Of a DNA stretch of 8,506 nucleotides, positions 1-8,506 are shown piece by piece. The stretch comes from Candidatus Methylomirabilis sp. (lineage in GTDB: Bacteria; DYJV01), in assembly GCA_020722945.1 (NCBI GenBank), contig DYJV01000055.1, forward strand, positions 1 to 8,506, written 5' to 3'. Within the stretch, counting starts at the first letter, position 1. Each line of letters begins with the position of its first letter. The notes below the pieces were generated by a model that worked only from the letters and a program-made list of their open reading frames with translations, had not been told where the DNA came from and made no database searches. The position numbers were made by a program, and so were the translations under genes.

Positions 1-236
1 ATATGGAGCTGCTGACAAGTGATGGCAGGATAGATATGGTAGCAAAGATAAAGGGGAAAATTTATATCATCGAATTTAAATGCAACCAGAGTGCAGAGAA
101 AGCCTTGGATCAGATAAAGAGTAAATATTTATCAAGATTTAAACCTCAAAGTTCAAATGAGGAGCTCTTCCTTGTTGGTATCAACTTTGATAGCCAAACA
201 AGAAATATTTCAGAGTGGAAGTGGGTATTGGGATAA
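1..236 (+). CDS. PD-(D/E)XK nuclease-domain protein, C-terminal fragment (DUF1703-like), 5' truncated by window edge
   Basis: Only the last 77 or so residues are in the window, and the reading frame is open to the left edge, so the ATG at position 3 is probably internal. The fragment shows the core of a PD-(D/E)XK nuclease fold: GRIDMV supplies the first acidic residue (D11 of the fragment). A beta-strand pair follows, ending in YIIEFK, where E24 and K26 form the ExK half of the motif. Next comes SAEKALDQIKSKYLSRF, then a strand with FLVGINFD. This order is typical of the C-terminal domain (DUF1703, PF08011) of proteins that carry an AAA-ATPase-like domain upstream. Those proteins are common in anaerobes, often in many copies, and their role is not firmly known. 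The ATPase part cannot be seen here. Family assignment is fairly confident; catalytic activity is inferred from the motif only. Confidence 0.75.
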   Translation, partial: MELLTSDGRIDMVAKIKGKIYIIEFKCNQSAEKALDQIKSKYLSRFKPQSSNEELFLVGINFDSQTRNISEWKWVLG

Positions 237-254
237 TTGATAATGATGGATTAT

Positions 255-282
255 GAATGGTGAATGGAGAATGGTGAATGGT
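255..282. repeat. Four tandem copies of the heptamer GAATGGW
   Basis: The units are GAATGGT, GAATGGA, GAATGGT and GAATGGT, followed by a diverged fifth unit (GAATTGA, 283-289). The repeat starts about 18 bases after the stop codon of the nuclease fragment. It has the look of a slipped-strand microsatellite in non-coding DNA. No function can be read from it. Confidence 0.8.
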
Positions 283-308
283 GAATTGACAATGGATAAT
301 TATTTTTT

Positions 309-385
309 TGAAAAATTCCCCTCTTTATTAAGTAGGAAAGATAAACAAAAAATGACCACCCCTTCAGCCTTCAGGCTGCTCTTTA
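309..385. repeat. Degraded repeat-like stretch with a small hairpin
   Basis: The stretch contains a C-rich motif (TTCCCCTC), an A-rich middle, then GACCACCCC and a hairpin with CAGCC (365-369) pairing GGCTG (374-378) around TTCA. The composition differs from the very AT-rich surroundings and resembles the eroded end of a short miniature element. No intact terminal repeats or target duplication can be seen. The hairpin could also act as a weak terminator for the upstream gene, but it lacks a clear T-run. Confidence 0.35.
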
Positions 386-446
386 TAGTTTATCATTATA
401 ACTCAAATTTCCAACATTGAATTTGTATGATAAATCAAATTAATTA

Positions 447-475
447 TTGACAGTATTAAGAGTTTTATATATTGT
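447..475 (+). promoter_or_regulatory. Sigma70-type promoter for ahcY
   Basis: A perfect -35 box TTGACA (447-452) is followed after 17 bases by TATTGT (470-475), which matches the -10 consensus at four of six positions. Spacing is optimal and the surroundings are AT-rich. Transcription would start near 482, giving a leader of about 95 nt. Confidence 0.6.
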
Positions 476-542
476 AGAATACTTTTTTTGTTACTCTTTT
501 GCTATCTGCTAATTTCATATATTTACCAAGTATTTTAAATAA

Positions 543-1901
<1,359 letters not shown>

Positions 1902-1908
1902 GATCAGG

Positions 1909-1948
1909 CTATCTGTCTAATATTTGCCTATACATTGTACACAGATAG
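1909..1948. repeat. Inverted repeat just after ahcY
   Basis: CTATCTGT (1909-1916) is matched by ACAGATAG (1941-1948) with a 24-base spacer. The pairing extends inward three more positions with one mismatch. It starts 8 bases after the ahcY stop, so it could form a 3' stem. There is no T-run after it, so it is not a standard intrinsic terminator. Confidence 0.35.
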
Positions 1949-2025
1949 GTGTTTACATAGGTAGAAAGGTTGAAGAAAAAACAGGTAGAAAAACAACTAC
2001 AAAAAAATAGACTTTATTTTTGTCA

Positions 2026-2064
2026 CCCTGAACTTGTCTACTTATGTGTAAACAGGTTTCAGGG
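2026..2064. repeat. REP-like hairpin element
   Basis: CCCTGAA (2026-2032) pairs with TTCAGGG (2058-2064). After one bulged T the stem continues with CTTGT (2033-2037) against ACAGG (2052-2056), including one G-T wobble. The result is about 12 paired positions and a 14-base loop. The core CACCCTGAACTTG...TTTCAGGGT resembles a dispersed intergenic palindrome seen in many bacterial genomes. It stands out against the AT-rich flanks and has no T-run on either side. It lies between ahcY and nth. Confidence 0.5.
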
Positions 2065-2154
2065 TTTCAAAAAATAGATTGAATATATAAAAAAGTGTAG
2101 TTTAAAACAGAGAGAGTGAGAAAAAAGATTCTCAAGCGAGTCCAAATTTAATAG

Positions 2155-2805
2155 ATGTCTAATCAAAATAGAGTTGATTTTTCAACTATATTTGAAAAAC
2201 TTTACAATTTTTATGGTGACAGACTCTGTTCTGTTGACAAATTCAAAGACCCATATAAGATACTTATCTCATGTATCATATCACTCCGAACAAAAGATGA
2301 AATAACTGAAAAATCTTCAAATGCACTTTTTTCAATGGCATCTGACCCTTATCAGATGTTAAAACTATCTTCAGATCAAATTAGTCAGGCAATTTTCCCC
2401 GCAGGTTTTTACAGAAAAAAGGGTGAACAGATTCTCTATATTACAAAAACAATTATTGAAAAGCACAATGGAAGAGTCCCTGATAATCTCAACGAACTTC
2501 TTTTAATAAAGGGGATAGGTAGAAAAAGTGCTAATCTTGTTTTGAGTCTTGGTTATCAAATACCTGCTATCTGTGTGGATACACATGTCCATAGAATATC
2601 AAATAGAATCGGTTTAGTAGAAACAACAACCCCTGAAAAAACAGAAATTCAACTTTCTAAAAAAATTGAGAAAGATTACTGGATAAGGATAAACAATCTT
2701 TTTGTCCTTCACGGGAAAAATATCTGTGTCCCCATATCACCAAAATGTTCAAATTGCCCTATCTCTTCTCTTTGCAAAAAAAATAGTGTAAATAAATCCC
2801 GATAA
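2155..2805 (+). CDS. nth: Endonuclease III, [4Fe-4S] DNA glycosylase/AP lyase
   Basis: This base-excision repair enzyme removes oxidised pyrimidines and nicks the abasic site by beta-elimination. Its 216 residues match the family length. The helix-hairpin-helix is LLLIKGIGRKSANLVL (115-130), with catalytic Lys124, and VDTHVHR carries catalytic Asp142. The C-terminal cluster loop has C191, C198, C201 and C207, exactly the C-X6-C-X2-C-X5-C spacing of the family. The N-terminal helix reads ISLRTKDE where E. coli has the LLSAQATD type, a variant seen in other Nth proteins. The start is the weak point: no good Shine-Dalgarno site precedes ATG 2155, only GAG about 12 bases upstream. A small hairpin (TGAGAA 2117-2122 with TTCTCA 2129-2134) lies before it. 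A poor promoter (TTGAAT 2079, TTTAAA 2101) is possible. The 3' end overlaps convergent lnt by 57 bases. Confidence 0.95.
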   Translation: MSNQNRVDFSTIFEKLYNFYGDRLCSVDKFKDPYKILISCIISLRTKDEITEKSSNALFSMASDPYQMLKLSSDQISQAIFPAGFYRKKGEQILYITKTIIEKHNGRVPDNLNELLLIKGIGRKSANLVLSLGYQIPAICVDTHVHRISNRIGLVETTTPEKTEIQLSKKIEKDYWIRINNLFVLHGKNICVPISPKCSNCPISSLCKKNSVNKSR

Positions 2806-4266
2806 AACAACCAATAGATAAAAAATATTTATCAGATAACAGTATTGATGATAAAATGACACTCCATTTACAAGGGGAATATCCATATTTATAAAACCTG
2901 ATTCAAACGGATATATCTTTCTTAATATCTCACCATCAGGGGATATTACAGCACTTATCCCTGTATTTGCAGATTTAATAAAAAATTTACCACTTTCAGC
3001 AGCTCTAAAAACATTTGCAGCCAAATGTTGCCACAAAGCATTACTTTTCCCAAACCATGCTTCATTGCTTATATTAATGATAATATTACCACCCATTTTA
3101 TTAGATTCTGCTATCTCAAATGGAAATATTCCTTCAAAACATACCAAAGGGACAATTTCTAAATTATCATATTTCAATATTTTTCTCACTTTACCCTTTG
3201 AAAAATCTTCACCCGGGGAGATTTTGTTAACAAAACCGAATAAAAATTTTAGTGGTGTGTATTCACCAAATGGGACAAGATGTATCTTGTCATACCTCAT
3301 AAAATTGGCTGTTTTATCAAAAAAGTATAGGCTGTTAAAAATTTTGTAGTCATGCAAAGAGTAGAAATCAATTGATGGCATCCCAAGTATAAGATTTGTA
3401 TTAATTTTACTGATAAATGTCAGCAGAGAATTCTTTAAATTTTTATCCTCATCAATAAATTTGGTAAAGATAGTTTCCCCCCATACAACAAGATCAGGCT
3501 TTGAATATTTTAATTTATCTAAAGTTAGACTTTTGTATATATTTAATACATCTTCTGCTCTTTTGCTGTCCATTATTAGATCTTCACTCACATTACCTTG
3601 AATTATAGATATATTAACTTTTTGATTCTCATTTATATTCTTTTTTGGGATAAAAAAGAGCACTCCTATCAAAACAACTAAAACTCCAATATATATAAAA
3701 CTCCGATAATTTTTATGGGAAAAAAGATTGAAGATTGAGACATTTACCAAAATAGCAGTAAAAGTTATGAAATAAGAACCAAGATATGGGACTACTTTTA
3801 AAAAAGGTTGAAATTCATAAAAGTTGTAGCTCAAATCACCCCAAGGGAATCCTGTAAAGATTACCCCCTTTAATATTTCAAGAGATGTAAATATTGAAGC
3901 AGCAAATACAGGATTTTTAAATTTTGAGTAGCAATATATAAAAACCACAAGAAATAACGACAATATAAGAGCCATAAGAAAAAGAGTCAAATAAGATACA
4001 ATAAGGGGTGAATTACTGTAGGTGAATGGAACTATAAGCCACCGATAATAAACAAGATTAAAAACAAGACCAAAAATAAATGATAAAGGGAGAAGTTTTT
4101 CAGGAAATTTATTTACTACATAAAGTAGCGGCAAAAAAATTATGAAGGTTATTAAGTAAGATCCATGACCCGGGGAAGTTATCTCTGCAAAGATCCCCCA
4201 GATCAGAAGAGATAGAAAAATTGGTGGGTTTATTAAACCCACCAATTTACTTATTAGTGGTCGCAA
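2749..4266 (-). CDS. lnt: Apolipoprotein N-acyltransferase
   Basis: This inner-membrane enzyme adds the third acyl chain to the N-terminal cysteine of lipoproteins, the last step of lipoprotein maturation in diderm bacteria. The 505 residues split as in the family. An N-terminal part of several hydrophobic helices (about 15-205) includes FTGFPWGDLSYNF. A nitrilase-like domain follows (about 216-465), with the Glu-Lys-Cys triad at E264 (VVWGETIF), K327 (RYDKIHLVPFGEYTP) and C376 (VPLVCFEGIFP). NISNEAWFG, SANTGIS and a final membrane helix (about 478-497) complete it. The start is uncertain. Reading opens at TTG 4266, overlapping the stop of the upstream mrp gene by 13 bases, and alternatives are TTG 4245 and GTG 4242. 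A TAA lies two codons upstream and none of the starts has a good Shine-Dalgarno site. A 31-bp palindrome with a T-run covers the early codons, so expression may be attenuated. The 3' end overlaps nth. Confidence 0.93.
   Translation of the reverse strand: MRPLISKLVGLINPPIFLSLLIWGIFAEITSPGHGSYLITFIIFLPLLYVVNKFPEKLLPLSFIFGLVFNLVYYRWLIVPFTYSNSPLIVSYLTLFLMALILSLFLVVFIYCYSKFKNPVFAASIFTSLEILKGVIFTGFPWGDLSYNFYEFQPFLKVVPYLGSYFITFTAILVNVSIFNLFSHKNYRSFIYIGVLVVLIGVLFFIPKKNINENQKVNISIIQGNVSEDLIMDSKRAEDVLNIYKSLTLDKLKYSKPDLVVWGETIFTKFIDEDKNLKNSLLTFISKINTNLILGMPSIDFYSLHDYKIFNSLYFFDKTANFMRYDKIHLVPFGEYTPLKFLFGFVNKISPGEDFSKGKVRKILKYDNLEIVPLVCFEGIFPFEIAESNKMGGNIIINISNEAWFGKSNALWQHLAANVFRAAESGKFFIKSANTGISAVISPDGEILRKIYPFESGFINMDIPLVNGVSFYHQYCYLINIFYLLVVLSGFIYTIFFAKRRDRAI
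4216..4248 (-). terminator. Perfect palindrome plus T-run at the mrp-lnt junction, intrinsic terminator or attenuator
   Basis: Bases 4218-4232 and 4234-4248 are exact reverse complements (15-base arms, one central base). On the minus strand the stem core GGTGGGTT/AACCCACC is followed by TTTTTCT, the form of an intrinsic terminator. It begins 5 bases after the stop codon of the mrp-ORP fusion gene (4254-4256). It also lies inside the early codons of lnt and covers the alternative lnt starts TTG 4245 and GTG 4242. On the plus strand no T-run follows, so the direction is minus. The structure is seen directly; termination is inferred. Confidence 0.75.
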
Positions 4267-5507
4267 ACGTTAGATCCAAGTTTAAGGGTGTTATTAATCA
4301 TGTCATCTATTAATTTTTCTGGAACATCATCAAGAGCCCCAACATAAACTTTTATCCCAAACTCTTCAAAAAAACCTTGAGCCTTTGACCCCATCCCTCC
4401 AGCTATAATAGCATTTACATTAAGGGAGTTGAGCCATTTGGGAATTACTCCCGGCTCATGAGGTGGAGGTGTAACAAACTCTTTTTTGGTAATAACACCA
4501 TTTTCAACATCATATATTCCAAAATTATCAGCATGACCAAAATGTCTGCAAAGAAGACCATTGGCAATAGGTATTGCAACTCTCATCTTTCCTCCTTTAG
4601 ATTTGTTTTCATTGATAGATTTTTGAGAACATGAAGAGCATGAACTCCCTTCACCACTGCAAGAAAGTGGTAAACTTCCTAAATTACAGTTAGCAGAATT
4701 GTTATCTTTCATAATCTTCAAAACAGCATCTTTATAAGCTTTGGCAGCTTCACTATCAGGGTTACTCTCAATGAAGAAAACTCCTGAATCACCACTATTT
4801 ACAATTTCTACCTCAAAAGGAATCCTCGCAAGAATATCAATATTAAAATCTTTTGCTGCTTTTTCAGCACCACCAGATTTAAAGATATAGGTAACCTCTC
4901 CACACTTTGGACATTTAAAACCAGCCATATTTTCGATTAACCCCAATACAGGAACTTTTAACATTTGAGAAAAATTGATAGTTTTCCTTGCATCAAGAAA
5001 AGCAACCTCCTGAGGAGTAGATACAATAATGGAGCCATCAACATTCCCAAGAAGTTGAACAGCACTTAAAGGCTCATCACCTGTCCCCGGAGGGCAATCT
5101 ATGATCAAATAATCAAGCTCAGGCCAATCAATGTCATTAAGAAATTGCTTTATTGCAGTCATTTTGAGTGGACCTCTCCAAACAACAGGAGTATCCTCAG
5201 ACTCAAGAAGAGATGCTATCGTCATAATATAAAAATTATCTTTTATTTTTATCGGTGCAGGATTCCCATGCTGGTTAACTTCGAGTCTTTTGCCTGAAAC
5301 ACCAGTCATTTTCGCTATCGATGGTCCATGTATATCAACATCCATTATCCCGACTTTTTTCCCCATAAGCCAAAGTGCAACAGCAATATTGACACTCACC
5401 GTGCTTTTACCTACTCCCCCCTTGCCACTTAAAACAATATATTTCTTCTTTATTCTTGATAAATTTTCGAGCATTTTTTGATTATCTTCTTGCTGATGAT
5501 TAGACAT
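4254..5507 (-). CDS. Mrp/NBP35-family Fe-S carrier ATPase fused to a C-terminal NifX/ORP-like domain (MrpORP type)
   Basis: This P-loop ATPase is predicted to bind and transfer iron-sulfur clusters in the cytosol. The N-terminal part (about 20-265) is Mrp/NBP35. It has the deviant Walker A GKGGVGKST (28-36), MDVDIHGPS (55-63), IIDCPPGTGDEP (135-146), STPQEVAFLDARK (163-175) and the cluster-binding pair C199/C202 in FKCPKCGE. A cysteine-rich linker follows (C274, C283, C290, C293). The C-terminal 110 residues (308-417) are a NifX/ORP domain, with RHFGHA (321-326), IIAGGMGSKA and the terminal GSNVCDH. This architecture matches the MrpORP proteins of Desulfovibrio, linked to Fe-S biogenesis. AGGAGG (5513-5518), five bases from ATG 5507, fixes the start. 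An internal Shine-Dalgarno site before Met308 could also yield the free ORP domain. The gene follows the small NifX/ORP gene by 67 bases. Confidence 0.92.
   Translation of the reverse strand: MSNHQQEDNQKMLENLSRIKKKYIVLSGKGGVGKSTVSVNIAVALWLMGKKVGIMDVDIHGPSIAKMTGVSGKRLEVNQHGNPAPIKIKDNFYIMTIASLLESEDTPVVWRGPLKMTAIKQFLNDIDWPELDYLIIDCPPGTGDEPLSAVQLLGNVDGSIIVSTPQEVAFLDARKTINFSQMLKVPVLGLIENMAGFKCPKCGEVTYIFKSGGAEKAAKDFNIDILARIPFEVEIVNSGDSGVFFIESNPDSEAAKAYKDAVLKIMKDNNSANCNLGSLPLSCSGEGSSCSSCSQKSINENKSKGGKMRVAIPIANGLLCRHFGHADNFGIYDVENGVITKKEFVTPPPHEPGVIPKWLNSLNVNAIIAGGMGSKAQGFFEEFGIKVYVGALDDVPEKLIDDMINNTLKLGSNVCDH
4584..4598 (-). promoter_or_regulatory. Internal Shine-Dalgarno site and ATG at the Mrp/ORP domain boundary
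   Basis: On the minus strand AAAGGAGG (4598-4591) is followed after four bases by the in-frame ATG (4586-4584) of Met308, exactly where the NifX/ORP domain begins (MRVAIPIANG). It is as strong as the sites in front of the real gene starts here. A product of 110 residues (4254-4586) would have the size of a free ORP/NifX protein. The site is either used as a second start or is left from the fusion of two genes. Confidence 0.6.
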
Positions 5508-5537
5508 AAATACCTCCTATAAATTTTACGTTTCTCT

Positions 5538-5567
5538 ACTATAATAAAATTACTTTAATTACAACAA
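5538..5567 (-). promoter_or_regulatory. Possible promoter for the mrp-ORP gene
   Basis: In the 67-base gap before the fusion gene the minus strand shows TTGTTG (5567-5562) and, 18 bases on, TATAGT (5543-5538). The match is moderate and the region is simply AT-rich, so read-through from the upstream genes may be enough. Confidence 0.25.
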
Positions 5568-5574
5568 AATTTTA

Positions 5575-5937
5575 CTACCAATGCCCAGGCTTCGTTGCCT
5601 GATCTGCATTTTTTAAAGTTCCAGATTTTAATAATTTGAGAGCCTCATCAACAGTAACACTCTCGTCAATGAGATAAATTTTAACATTTGAGCCACTCAA
5701 CACATTAAACGCCTTGGGACCAACATTACCGGTAATTAGAACATCTATACCCTCTCTTAAAATATTCTGTGCTGATTGTATCCCCGCTCCCTGTGCTGCA
5801 TTGAGATTTTGGGAGTTATCAATTATCTTTCTCTCCCCTGTTGTTTCATCATAGATAAGAAAATATTTACACCTTCCAAATCTTGAATCAACGACTGAAT
5901 TTTGATCTTTTTCAGAAATTGTTAAACCAATTTTCAT
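5575..5937 (-). CDS. NifX/ORP-family small protein (dinitrogenase iron-molybdenum cofactor-binding fold)
   Basis: This is a 120-residue single-domain protein of the family that includes NifX, the NifB C-terminal domain and the orange protein ORP. These proteins carry metal clusters non-covalently. Family features are MKIGLTISE at the N-terminus, DSRFGRCKYFLIYD (17-30), the GAGIQSAQNIL helix, GIDVLITGNVGPKAF (63-77), a TVDEALKLL helix and a C-terminal GHW. The equivalent of the RHFGHA loop in the neighbouring fusion is SRFGRC, with Cys23. The start overlaps the stop of the upstream ATPase gene in an ATGA arrangement (5934-5937). AAAGGAG (5946-5952) lies eight bases before it, so translational coupling is likely. 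It may be the substrate or partner of the two MinD-like ATPases and of MrpORP. Which metal it carries cannot be read from the sequence. Confidence 0.88.
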   Translation of the reverse strand: MKIGLTISEKDQNSVVDSRFGRCKYFLIYDETTGERKIIDNSQNLNAAQGAGIQSAQNILREGIDVLITGNVGPKAFNVLSGSNVKIYLIDESVTVDEALKLLKSGTLKNADQATKPGHW

Positions 5938-6821
5938 TTTACACTCTCCTTTACTCTATTTTGATTTATTTTAAACCATATACTTTCTAAACTTTTTCGA
6001 AGCTCTTCATCTGTCTCTACAACTGATCTCTTCTGAACCAATGCTTGATAAAATTTTTTACTATAAGGTATCTCTCCTAACAGTTCAATACCACTTTCAC
6101 CACAGAATCTTTCAATATCTCTCTTAATTTCTCGATTTATTGATGCTTTATTTATGATACAACCTGAACGGATTTTAAAATGATTAATAAGCTCTGCCAC
6201 CCTTTGGAGATCGCTGAACCCTGAAATAGTAGGTTCTGTAACCAAAACTACAAAATTCACCCCACTCATTGCAGCTATTACAGGACAGGCAATCCCGGGA
6301 GGACCATCTATCAGGATAGTATTGCTGTTTGATTCTTTTGCAATAATTTTAGCAGTTGTCCTAACAGTCGATACAAGTTTGCCAGAGTTATCAGCTCCAG
6401 GTTCTAATACAGCATGAACAAGCTTCTTCCCTAACCTTGTATTTGAGATATAATACTCTCCACATCTGTTTTCATTAGCTTCTATTGCTTTTTGAGGGCA
6501 GAGATTGTAGCATAAAAGGCACTTTTCACATTCAAGTGGATCGATATATGCACTATCACCTCTTATAGAAATTGCATGATAATGACAATTTTCTACACAA
6601 ATATTACATAAATTACACATCTTCTCAACTACTCTACACTCTTTGCCTGAATAAAAATCGAAAGAGCTGCTTTTATCTGGTGCAAGTAAAATATGCATAT
6701 CCGCAGCATCAACATCACAATCAACAATAATATCATTTTTTTCAAGAAAGAAACTGAACGCTGCAGTAATGGATGTTTTCCCTGTGCCACCCTTTCCACT
6801 TAATATCAATATCTCTCTCAT
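5934..6821 (-). CDS. MinD-like P-loop ATPase with inserted 2x[4Fe-4S] ferredoxin domain (second of pair)
   Basis: This is a 295-residue cytosolic ATPase of the Mrp/MinD superfamily with a ferredoxin module inserted after the first part of the P-loop domain (COG1149 type). It shows a deviant Walker A GKGGTGKT (9-16) and DCDVDAADMH (34-43). Two cluster motifs follow: C69-X2-C72-X2-C75-X3-C79, and C98-X2-C101-X2-C104-X3-C108-Pro. Next come IDGPPGIACP (171-180), TEPTISGFSDL (195-205) and IINKASIN. All eight ferredoxin cysteines are present, so two 4Fe-4S clusters are expected. Its likely role is ATP-driven metal-cluster assembly or transfer with the NifX/ORP proteins next to it, as proposed for the Desulfovibrio ORP cluster. 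It starts one base after the stop of the upstream ATPase, with GAGGT as Shine-Dalgarno, and its stop overlaps the start of the NifX/ORP gene. Confidence 0.9.
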   Translation of the reverse strand: MREILILSGKGGTGKTSITAAFSFFLEKNDIIVDCDVDAADMHILLAPDKSSSFDFYSGKECRVVEKMCNLCNICVENCHYHAISIRGDSAYIDPLECEKCLLCYNLCPQKAIEANENRCGEYYISNTRLGKKLVHAVLEPGADNSGKLVSTVRTTAKIIAKESNSNTILIDGPPGIACPVIAAMSGVNFVVLVTEPTISGFSDLQRVAELINHFKIRSGCIINKASINREIKRDIERFCGESGIELLGEIPYSKKFYQALVQKRSVVETDEELRKSLESIWFKINQNRVKESVK

Positions 6822-6822
6822 C

Positions 6823-7686
6823 TTATACCTCTTTTAAAAGTGAAATAATTTTATCAAAAGCAGACAGAAAATATCTTTTAAACCTATCATCTTTTTCTGA
6901 AACAATAATTCCATTTGAATAGTTTTGTGCAATCTCATCACTATGTGGAATCTTTGAAAGCAAAGGGATACCCTCTTTTATACAGAAATCTTCAACTTCA
7001 GAGTCTCCTATCCCATCCTTATTTATTACAACTCCAAATTTTAATTTTAGTTTTTTTAAGACATCGTAGGTAATAACAAAATCGTTAAATCCAAAAGGAG
7101 TCGGCTCTGCTACAAGAACAACAAAATCATTCCCCTTCATTGCCGCTATTGTGGGGCAAGTTGTCCCAGGGGGTGAATCGTAAATGATAAATTCGTAATC
7201 ATTATAATTTTGTAATGTTTTATCTTTGGTCTGTTTGATAAGAGGAACAGCAATAGGTTCTCTAAGTTTGAGCTTACCCTCTACAAATCCATCTCTGTTA
7301 TCCTTGACAACTCCAATCTCCTTCTCTCCTTTGGCAAGAGCATTCTCAGGACACAACTTGATACAAGCAGTGCAACCCTTACAAAGCTCAGGAAATATTC
7401 CCCACTTTGTCTTTGTAACAAAGATTGCATTAAATTGGCAAACTTCCGAACATCTGCCACAAAGAGTGCACTTTGAGTCATCAACAACAGGGATAGTATT
7501 GTAACATAAAATCTCAACCAGCTTCATACCACTCTTTATGAAAAGTCCCGAATTTGGCTCCTCTACATCAAGATCAGATAGACAAATTTTATACTTATCT
7601 TTCAAAGAGTAGTATAAGTTTGTTGAGAAAAAAGTTTTACCAGTCCCACCCTTTCCACTTGCTACTGCAATTTTTAATGGTTTCAT
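6823..7686 (-). CDS. MinD-like P-loop ATPase with inserted 2x[4Fe-4S] ferredoxin domain (first of pair)
   Basis: This 287-residue paralogue of the next gene has Walker A SGKGGTGKT (10-18) and SDLDVEEPN (37-45). The first cluster motif is C73-X2-C76-X2-C79-X3-C83 and the second is C102-X2-C105-X2-C108-X3-C112-Pro. These are followed by a middle segment with KLREPIAVPLI, then YDSPPGTTCPTIAAMKG (169-185), AEPTPFGFNDF and VINKDGIG. The two ATPases are diverged, not recent duplicates, and share the GTG(K/A)-type P-loop and the Cys in the switch loop (SPPGTTCP and GPPGIACP). They probably form a heterodimer, as such pairs nearly always occur side by side. The ATG at 7686 has GGGAG nine bases upstream. 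It is the first gene of the tight ATPase/ORP unit, preceded by about 190 bases with possible promoter signals and a hairpin. Confidence 0.9.
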   Translation of the reverse strand: MKPLKIAVASGKGGTGKTFFSTNLYYSLKDKYKICLSDLDVEEPNSGLFIKSGMKLVEILCYNTIPVVDDSKCTLCGRCSEVCQFNAIFVTKTKWGIFPELCKGCTACIKLCPENALAKGEKEIGVVKDNRDGFVEGKLKLREPIAVPLIKQTKDKTLQNYNDYEFIIYDSPPGTTCPTIAAMKGNDFVVLVAEPTPFGFNDFVITYDVLKKLKLKFGVVINKDGIGDSEVEDFCIKEGIPLLSKIPHSDEIAQNYSNGIIVSEKDDRFKRYFLSAFDKIISLLKEV

Positions 7687-7721
7687 AAGTTGGCTCTCCC
7701 TCTAATATTTAAAAGATTACC

Positions 7722-7756
7722 TGACACAGATCATTGGACAGCAGATATAGTGTCAA
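7722..7756 (-). promoter_or_regulatory. Candidate promoter/operator of the ATPase-ORP unit
   Basis: On the minus strand TTGACA (7756-7751) is a perfect -35 box, but the position 17 bases on (TGATCT) is a poor -10. The same bases also read TGACAC-N5-CTGC (7755-7741), which resembles a sigma54 -24/-12 element (TGGCAC-N5-TTGC). The GC at -12 is intact, but one of the two key G bases at -24 is changed. TGACAC recurs inverted (plus strand 7722-7727 against GTGTCA 7750-7755), so an operator is also possible. All readings are tentative. Confidence 0.3.
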
Positions 7757-7821
7757 GTAATATCTCAAATAGTTAGAATCTGATTTAGTTTGTATAAAGG
7801 AATAATGAATATTAAACAAAT

Positions 7822-7862
7822 TTTTAAAGGGGAAAAGCTGTATCTTCCCCCCCCCTTTAAAA
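7822..7862 (-). terminator. Hairpin with a nine-C/G homopolymer after the DUF5320 gene
   Basis: TTTTAAAGGGG (7822-7832) and CCCCTTTAAAA (7852-7862) are exact reverse complements with a 19-base loop. Nine consecutive C (7847-7855 on the plus strand) allow other registers, for example GGGGAA with TTCCCC (7845-7850). The hairpin begins 15 bases after the DUF5320 stop on the minus strand. No clean T-run follows (AATTTGTTT), so it may be a weak terminator, an mRNA-processing or stabilising structure. Confidence 0.45.
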
Positions 7863-7877
7863 GATCTCTGAGAATAT

Positions 7878-8126
7878 CTACTTATCACCACTTTTAGCTC
7901 TCTCAAGCCTTGCAATCTCCTGCTCAATCATCTCTTTTTCCTGTTTTAAGTAATCTAATTCATCAGACTGGTTAAAATATCTTCTACCAAAACCTCTCAT
8001 ACCGGCACCTCTCCTAGCTCCCATACCAAATCCTCTTACAGCTCCTCTGCCTCTACCGCACATACCAAATCCACCACCTGTCATAGCTCCTTGTCCCATT
8101 GGTCCTGTTCCATCAAATCTTGGCAT
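7878..8126 (-). CDS. DUF5320-type Gly/Arg/Met-rich protein with C-terminal coiled coil
   Basis: This small basic protein of 82 residues begins MPRFDGTGPMGQGAMTGGGF, the signature of the DUF5320 family found beside ORP/NifX and MinD-like genes in anaerobes. Residues 1-50 are low-complexity Gly/Arg/Met with GMCGRGRG (one Cys) and RGFGRRYF. Residues from about 53 on (SDELDYLKQEKEMIEQEIARL) are a charged heptad-like helix, probably a coiled coil. I chose ATG 8126 over the upstream in-frame ATG 8144 because GGGGGTGA lies just before 8126 and the family starts with MPR. The gene follows the DUF134 stop by 21 bases, so the two are probably co-transcribed. The function is unknown; the composition suggests binding to nucleic acid or a protein partner. 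A 55-base stretch of it (7967-8021) recurs at the window end. Confidence 0.85.
   Translation of the reverse strand: MPRFDGTGPMGQGAMTGGGFGMCGRGRGAVRGFGMGARRGAGMRGFGRRYFNQSDELDYLKQEKEMIEQEIARLERAKSGDK
7967..8021. repeat. First copy of a 55-base exact direct repeat
   Basis: This stretch inside the DUF5320 gene is identical, base for base and in the same orientation, to 8452-8506 at the right edge of the window. It reads as normal DUF5320 coding sequence here, so this is the original copy. Confidence 0.95.
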
Positions 8127-8147
8127 AAAATCACCCCCTTTCATCTT

Positions 8148-8450
8148 TTATATCTTATTAAATCTATGCATACAACATCTACCATGCCCAAAATGTTGTG
8201 CCATATTTTTTATTTTCAGACTCCCACACTCTGGGCATTTGGTAATTTCACTTAAATTTATAGATATTTCAACTATATGTCCACATTCATCACACCTGAA
8301 AAGATTTTTCCTGAAATGAATATTCCCACCTTCAATAATAAGCTCTTTACAGTTGATTATAGCATCTGCTATCTTCTTCCTTGCCTGCTCAATCAACCTT
8401 GTAAATGTAGGTCTCGAGATCCCCATATGTTTTGAAGCCTCTTCCTGATC
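8148..8450 (-). CDS. DUF134 (UPF0251) DNA-binding-type protein, N-terminus missing
   Basis: The reading frame [20 protein letters not shown] is the helix-turn-helix region of the DUF134 family, predicted DNA-binding proteins often encoded beside NifX/ORP and MinD-like genes. It continues with [11 protein letters not shown] and the family's LIIEGGN. A C-terminal zinc-ribbon-like part follows, with CDECGH and CPECGS, and the tail GHGRCCMHR. About 45 N-terminal residues expected from the family are absent. In frame, the sequence upstream of 8450 runs into a TAA at 8457-8459, which lies in the repeated DUF5320 segment. The ATG at 8426 is internal to the helix-turn-helix and is not the true start. 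The likely role, regulating the genes downstream on the same strand, is inferred from context. The truncation comes either from a faulty junction or from a real rearrangement. Confidence 0.8.
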
Positions 8451-8451
8451 A

Positions 8452-8506
8452 ACTGGTTAAAATATCTTCTACCAAAACCTCTCATACCGGCACCTCTCCT
8501 AGCTCC
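8452..8506. repeat. Second copy of the 55-base exact direct repeat, at the window edge
   Basis: These bases are identical to 7967-8021. They sit where the 5' part of the DUF134 gene should be, and on the minus strand they join DUF5320 codons out of frame to DUF134. The junction lies at short shared bases (ATCAACTGG here, ATCAGACTGG at the first copy). Confidence 0.95.

Follow-up and report, generated by a model that had tools for sequence, protein, structure and literature searches.

Metal-sulfide handling in anaerobes is poorly understood, and the orange protein (ORP) complex has no settled function. What does an ORP gene set do when it forms one gene block headed by genes of two DUF families, DUF134 and DUF5320? 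The window, that is, the whole stretch of DNA analysed here, corresponds to positions 1-8506 of a contig of 16,451 bp, which belongs to a genome of 2.51 Mb (184 contigs, 98% complete). From position 4254 to the window end, its minus strand carries six genes, which encode DUF134, DUF5320, two ferredoxin-bearing ATPases of the MinD type (FdA and FdB), a free Nitro_FeMo-Co/ORP protein, and MrpORP. The preliminary description had listed these same six genes, and domain searches confirmed them all. As judged from its sequence, the locus is a genuine ORP gene cluster, in which the two ferredoxin ATPases, the free ORP, and MrpORP represent the Orp3/Orp4/Orp8/Orp9 core. A predicted operator and a DUF5320-ORP fusion turn two DUFs into putative parts of one testable system, which spans many bacterial lineages and at least one archaeal record.

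Locus Layout and the Assembly Gap

The DUF134 gene had been placed at 8148-8426. Its family assignment holds (44.8 bits against 27), whereas its completeness does not: the feature (8148..8451, minus strand) is a fragment comprising the C-terminal part of the HTH, the zinc ribbon, and the tail, and it covers only positions 60-96 of the PF02001 model. The reason lies at the window end. Bases 8452..8506 are an exact 55-nt repeat of 7967-8021, and the window stops there, at a gap of 100 N that begins at contig position 8507. Beyond the gap, 7967-8452 recur without a mismatch (contig 8607-9092), which makes a 485-bp unit (7967..8451; neither repeat feature has a strand) repeated exactly across the gap. 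Past the second copy, the contig sequence runs into a full DUF134 gene (contig 8788-9252) of 154 codons, or 149 aa from the likely ATG, which is a whole-length member of the family (PF02001, 108.4 bits, model positions 4-96).

An exact 55-nt overlap at a gap is a typical leftover of a loop in a k=55 de Bruijn assembly graph. The 485-bp repeat is either such an assembly artefact or a recent tandem duplication, and it is read here as an unresolved graph loop because the overlap fits a k=55 assembly. The repeat and the gap (contig 8452-9092) leave truncated copies of both DUF134 and DUF5320.

The Ferredoxin ATPases

FdA (6823..7686, minus strand) and FdB (5934..6821, minus strand) were both recognized by domain searches as MinD/ParA-type ATPases with an inserted 2[4Fe-4S] ferredoxin, similar to Orp3/4. 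Walker A and eight ferredoxin cysteines are invariant in the FdA alignment, and FdA directly precedes FdB in relatives wherever both have been seen. Since the two are fused into one protein in locus L076, it is suggested that FdA and FdB work as a pair.

The earlier expectation that the genes of the set co-occur across relatives is borne out widely. When 41 genomes were searched with FdA alone, adjacent FdA-FdB pairs, complete or partial, were obtained at 17 loci. Of these 17, selected by the ATPase only, 15 bear a Nitro_FeMo-Co domain within the fetched stretch, and one of the exceptions is a short contig. The nearest relative (G001), the only other sampled genome of the same order, keeps the order FdB-ORP-MrpORP, while certain lineages possess ORP clusters lacking DUF134 or DUF5320.

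The kinship of FdA and FdB with MinD/ParA, together with the lack of a canonical MinD above the cut-off in the window genome, brings up a role in cell division, where the MinD-like ATPases would determine the site of division, with the ORP parts reporting the redox state. A putative role in positioning the septum has been attributed to the orp genes of Desulfovibrio vulgaris (PMC3897727), and MrpORP is polar in the cell of this bacterium (PMC6345978). Such a role is nevertheless decidedly unlikely here: FdA and FdB contain inserted ferredoxins and fall far short of the MinD cut-offs, no Min or Fts gene is seen among the contig ORFs, and the neighbours conserved in other genomes are metal-cluster proteins.

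The Free ORP and MrpORP

The preliminary description had assigned the small domains to the NifX/ORP family and had distinguished two different domains; both statements agree with the domain searches. The free protein (5575..5937, minus strand; PF02579, 82.7 bits against 26.3) has 120 aa, is RFGR-type and Orp8-like, bears no tail, and ends with GHW. The second domain forms the C-terminus of MrpORP (4254..5507, minus strand; Orp9-like), which consists of an Mrp/NBP35 ATPase (PF10609), a linker, and an HFGH-type ORP domain (PF02579) ending with CDH. The RFGR and HFGH types are the recurrent kinds of ORP domain, with the HFGH type elsewhere often found free beside a separate Mrp. MrpORP reaches 475 bits with NF041136, above the equivalog cut-off of 450.

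Like other members of the NF041136 family, the window MrpORP has Walker A (SGKGGVGKS), a CXXC motif (CPKC), HFGH, and the C-terminal CDH. The reported family motif CXHFGHCE appears here as CRHFGHAD, so that one ORP cysteine is replaced while CDH is kept, and four additional cysteines (CX8CX6CX2C) are located in the linker and not near the N-terminus as in D. vulgaris MrpORP. Among 19 HFGH-type domains, the cysteine following HFG[HR] is kept in 17, while the cysteine two residues before is present in only five. The proposal of three cysteine ligands for the ORP domain may thus not be general, since the cysteine preceding HFGH is often missing in this sample.

The two domains described above are the only Nitro_FeMo-Co domains in the genome, and neither is fused to a radical-SAM NifB. 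Maturation of a nitrogenase-type cofactor by a NifX/NafY-like protein, which shares with this locus the Nitro_FeMo-Co fold and NifH-like ATPases, is hence highly improbable; a reading of the ORFs revealed no nif gene on the 16-kb contig, and the Nitro_FeMo-Co proteins are present in many genomes together with the ORP set.

Comparison with the Desulfovibrio ORP Complex

In D. vulgaris, the ferredoxin ATPases Orp3 and Orp4, Orp5, the free ORP Orp8, and Orp9 (MrpORP) belong to one complex (PMC6345978); the corresponding loci in strain Hildenborough are DVU2103 (Orp3), DVU2104 (Orp4), DVU2108 (Orp8), and DVU2109 (Orp9/MrpORP) (PMC6345978). The window resembles this system in that a single cluster encodes an adjacent pair of ferredoxin ATPases together with a free ORP and a fusion of Mrp to ORP. 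It differs in that its genes form one block, at the head of which stand DUF134 and DUF5320. No obvious candidate for Orp5 was found by reading the contig ORFs.

The similarity to the Desulfovibrio cluster, claimed earlier in outline, therefore stands for the parts that make up the core but not for regulation. The orp operons of D. vulgaris are divergent and depend on sigma54 and OrpR (DVU2106) (PMC3897727), whereas no regulator of the OrpR/sigma54 type was recognized by reading the contig ORFs, and a sigma70-like promoter precedes DUF134 instead.

Which metal the free ORP would hold is a separate matter. According to one explanation, the locus encodes a Mo-Cu orange protein complex of the D. 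gigas/vulgaris type, in which the free ORP binds S2MoS2CuS2MoS2 for Mo or Cu handling. The D. gigas ORP (2wfb) is among its closest solved relatives in a phmmer search (7e-16), and the partner set is the same as Orp3/4/8/9. However, 1rdu and MTH1175 (1eo1) match the free ORP about equally well, and MTH1175 has been placed in the IssA clade (PMC5524996). Neither DUF5320 nor DUF134, moreover, is matched by a component in the published description of the Desulfovibrio complex (PMC6345978). The host probably uses Mo or W, since its genome encodes a good MoaA, while no ModA scores above the cut-off in this 98% complete genome; the presence of the one and the lack of the other do not settle Mo use either way. 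On balance, the Mo-Cu explanation is rather unlikely. In D. vulgaris itself, the ORP domain of MrpORP carries an apparent [3Fe-4S] cluster, that is, Fe-S and not Mo-Cu (PMC6345978), and Fe-S clusters pass in vitro from MrpORP to Orp3-Orp4-Orp8 (PMC6345978).

The lnt Gene and the 3′ End of the Unit

The ORP set had been noted to lie next to lnt. A functional link was not upheld, and lnt was rejected as a partner: a terminator-like hairpin of 14 pairs (4218..4248, minus strand; hairpin prediction) directly follows the MrpORP stop, at the annotated lnt start, and no lnt lies beside the ORP cluster of G001. The terminator is a weak prediction, because three terminator-like hits in the region compare with 2.6 expected from shuffles, which is no excess. 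Probably, lnt lies outside the ORP unit as an incidental neighbour. The lnt ORF as called begins at TTG 4266, upstream of the hairpin, and its true start is probably located further inside the ORF.

DUF5320 as a Putative Detached Tail

DUF5320 (7878..8144, minus strand; PF17253, 43.4 bits against a cut-off of 27) is built of a Gly/Arg-rich cationic segment, with a pI of 12.0 over residues 7-57, and a C-terminal helix. The MPxxDGTGP N-termini of its relatives suggest that translation is initiated at 8126. A gap of 190 bp, with a possible hairpin within it, separates DUF5320 from FdA, so a single transcript across this junction is not assured.

The association with ORP proteins has been followed in 98 genomes, each from a different genus. 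Every one of the 24 genomes bearing DUF5320 encodes Nitro_FeMo-Co as well (hypergeometric p 7e-10), and 21 of the 24 have both on the same contig within 5 kb of each other. Furthermore, four genomes (G002, G022, G028, and G095) each contain a single ORF matched by both Pfam families, with the DUF5320 tail always following an RFGR-type ORP domain (4/4). On a profile made from free DUF5320 proteins, to which G002 had also contributed a free protein, the fused tails score 30-64 bits, a level that none of 1000 composition-preserving shuffles reached for any of the tails; Gly-rich low complexity has been ruled out in this way as the cause of the matches. A tail consisting of Gly only, found in locus L008, scored -3.3 and was not counted as a DUF5320 fusion. 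Fusions of a ferredoxin with DUF5320 have also been observed (L090, 3354-3908; L102, 3999-4469).

An analogy is provided by IssA, a protein of thioferrate storage in Pyrococcus furiosus, whose cationic Gly-rich C-terminal tail has been proposed to wrap anionic thioferrate (PMC5524996). IssA and the window share a Nitro_FeMo-Co domain and a cationic Gly-rich segment, but IssA has its tail on the ORP protein, whereas the free ORP of the window has none, and DUF5320 may supply it in trans. Because DUF5320 is fused to the free-ORP type of domain in four genomes and co-located with ORP genes elsewhere, it is suggested to be a detached, IssA-like cationic tail made as a separate protein.

DUF134 and Its Predicted Operator

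Like other members of DUF134 (PF02001, UPF0251/COG1342), the full protein beyond the gap combines an HTH with a zinc ribbon. No characterised member was found in the literature searched, whose coverage leaves out most subscription journals. The upstream region of the full gene contains a sigma70-like promoter (TTGACT-17-TATATT) and two 13-bp repeats.

A candidate operator was sought upstream of DUF134 genes, in a set of 73 distinct regions drawn from many families. The initial guess, GAACN4GTTC, was too narrow, as it occurred in 8 of 73 regions, and was discarded. Unbiased enumeration of palindromes detected GCAT/ATGC in 22 regions (0.1 expected) and TATG-N2-CATA in 25 (0.25 expected). With the window genome left out of the training set, the resulting weight matrix has the consensus TTATGAGCATATGCTCATAA, a 20-bp palindrome. 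By leave-one-out scoring, 45 of 71 DUF134 upstream regions carry a site above 10 bits, versus 0.15 expected from shuffles that preserved base composition and not dinucleotides; some of the regions come from related genomes, so the 71 do not represent 71 independent events. Among other ORFs, a site was found at 2 of 412, both being divergent from DUF134 and sharing its promoter. The median distance from the operator end to the start codon is 21 nt, and TTGAC/A occurs within 50 nt upstream of the operator in 38 of 49 cases, a placement in which the bound protein would block transcription. This conserved predicted operator of the DUF134 family is new in the present analysis.

The held-out promoter of DUF134 in the window genome bears two sites, of 20.1 and 11.9 bits. 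With two copies of the palindrome at its own promoter, DUF134 probably acts on the ORP operon as an autorepressor. Genome G004 has DUF134 as the last gene of the cluster, and its operator (26.0 bits) is located 23 bp upstream of the leading ORP gene, which is of the RFGR type. In G089, DUF134 is encoded far from the ORP genes, and the region preceding these genes yielded no operator. A genome-wide pattern scan of the window genome yielded nine sites against two for the control. A wider regulon was not accepted, because the sites inspected were weak, except for the two at DUF134. One operator-like site of 13.0 bits (contig C56; L116, 3098-3117), located some 320 bp upstream of a feoB-like gene, was not counted as a regulon member, as it sits in an apparently decayed ORF.

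The window genome has a second DUF134 (contig C30; L094, 4511-5799), with the gene of a stand-alone Mrp ATPase immediately downstream. A different palindrome, GAACTATAGTTC, lies upstream of it, and the consensus operator is missing.

Nitro_FeMo-Co is absent from 2 of 16 genomes having DUF134. In locus L072 (6323-6994), a single protein joins DUF134 to an ORP domain of the HFGH type, and a MerR-like N-terminus, recognized by eye, is fused to an ORP (Nitro_FeMo-Co) domain in locus L070 (2208-2915). Both fusions suggest that ORP domains may serve transcription regulators as their sensory part.

A Model for the Operon

The best model, to which a probability of roughly 0.55 may be given, is an operon under DUF134 control whose products assemble and retain a metal-sulfide cluster, with DUF5320 as a tail in trans and MrpORP supplying Fe-S. 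DUF134 would bind the statistically supported 20-bp palindrome overlapping its own promoter and switch the operon off, or possibly on, presumably according to metal-sulfur status. FdA and FdB would form an ATP-driven, ferredoxin-bearing heterodimer that helps to assemble an anionic metal-sulfide cluster or load it on the free RFGR-type ORP. As the fusions and co-location suggest, DUF5320 would hold this anionic cluster in trans with its separate Gly/Arg tail, the role proposed in cis for the C-terminal tail of IssA. MrpORP would provide FdA and FdB with Fe-S, as its Desulfovibrio homologue does in vitro.

A broader version is tentative, with the odds somewhat against it. DUF134 proteins might be widespread autoregulators that bind the consensus palindrome and sense metal-sulfide via the zinc ribbon or via an ORP-type domain, either fused or encoded by the next gene; the ORP cluster would then be a general anaerobic system for metal-sulfide assembly and storage, and DUF5320 its detachable thiometallate-binding tail.

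Other Features of the Contig

An Rfam search of the contig gave no family match. Both contig ends (1-236 and 16268-16451) appear to lie inside AAA-ATPase/PD-(D/E)XK_9 genes, the left one identified by search as PF08011 and the right one by eye; this repeat probably broke the assembly. The plus strand bears selD (contig 10086-11126), whose codon 17 is an in-frame TGA that lies within the context GUAGK and is read as selenocysteine; selD adjoins a YedF/TusA-like gene (contig 9459-10073).
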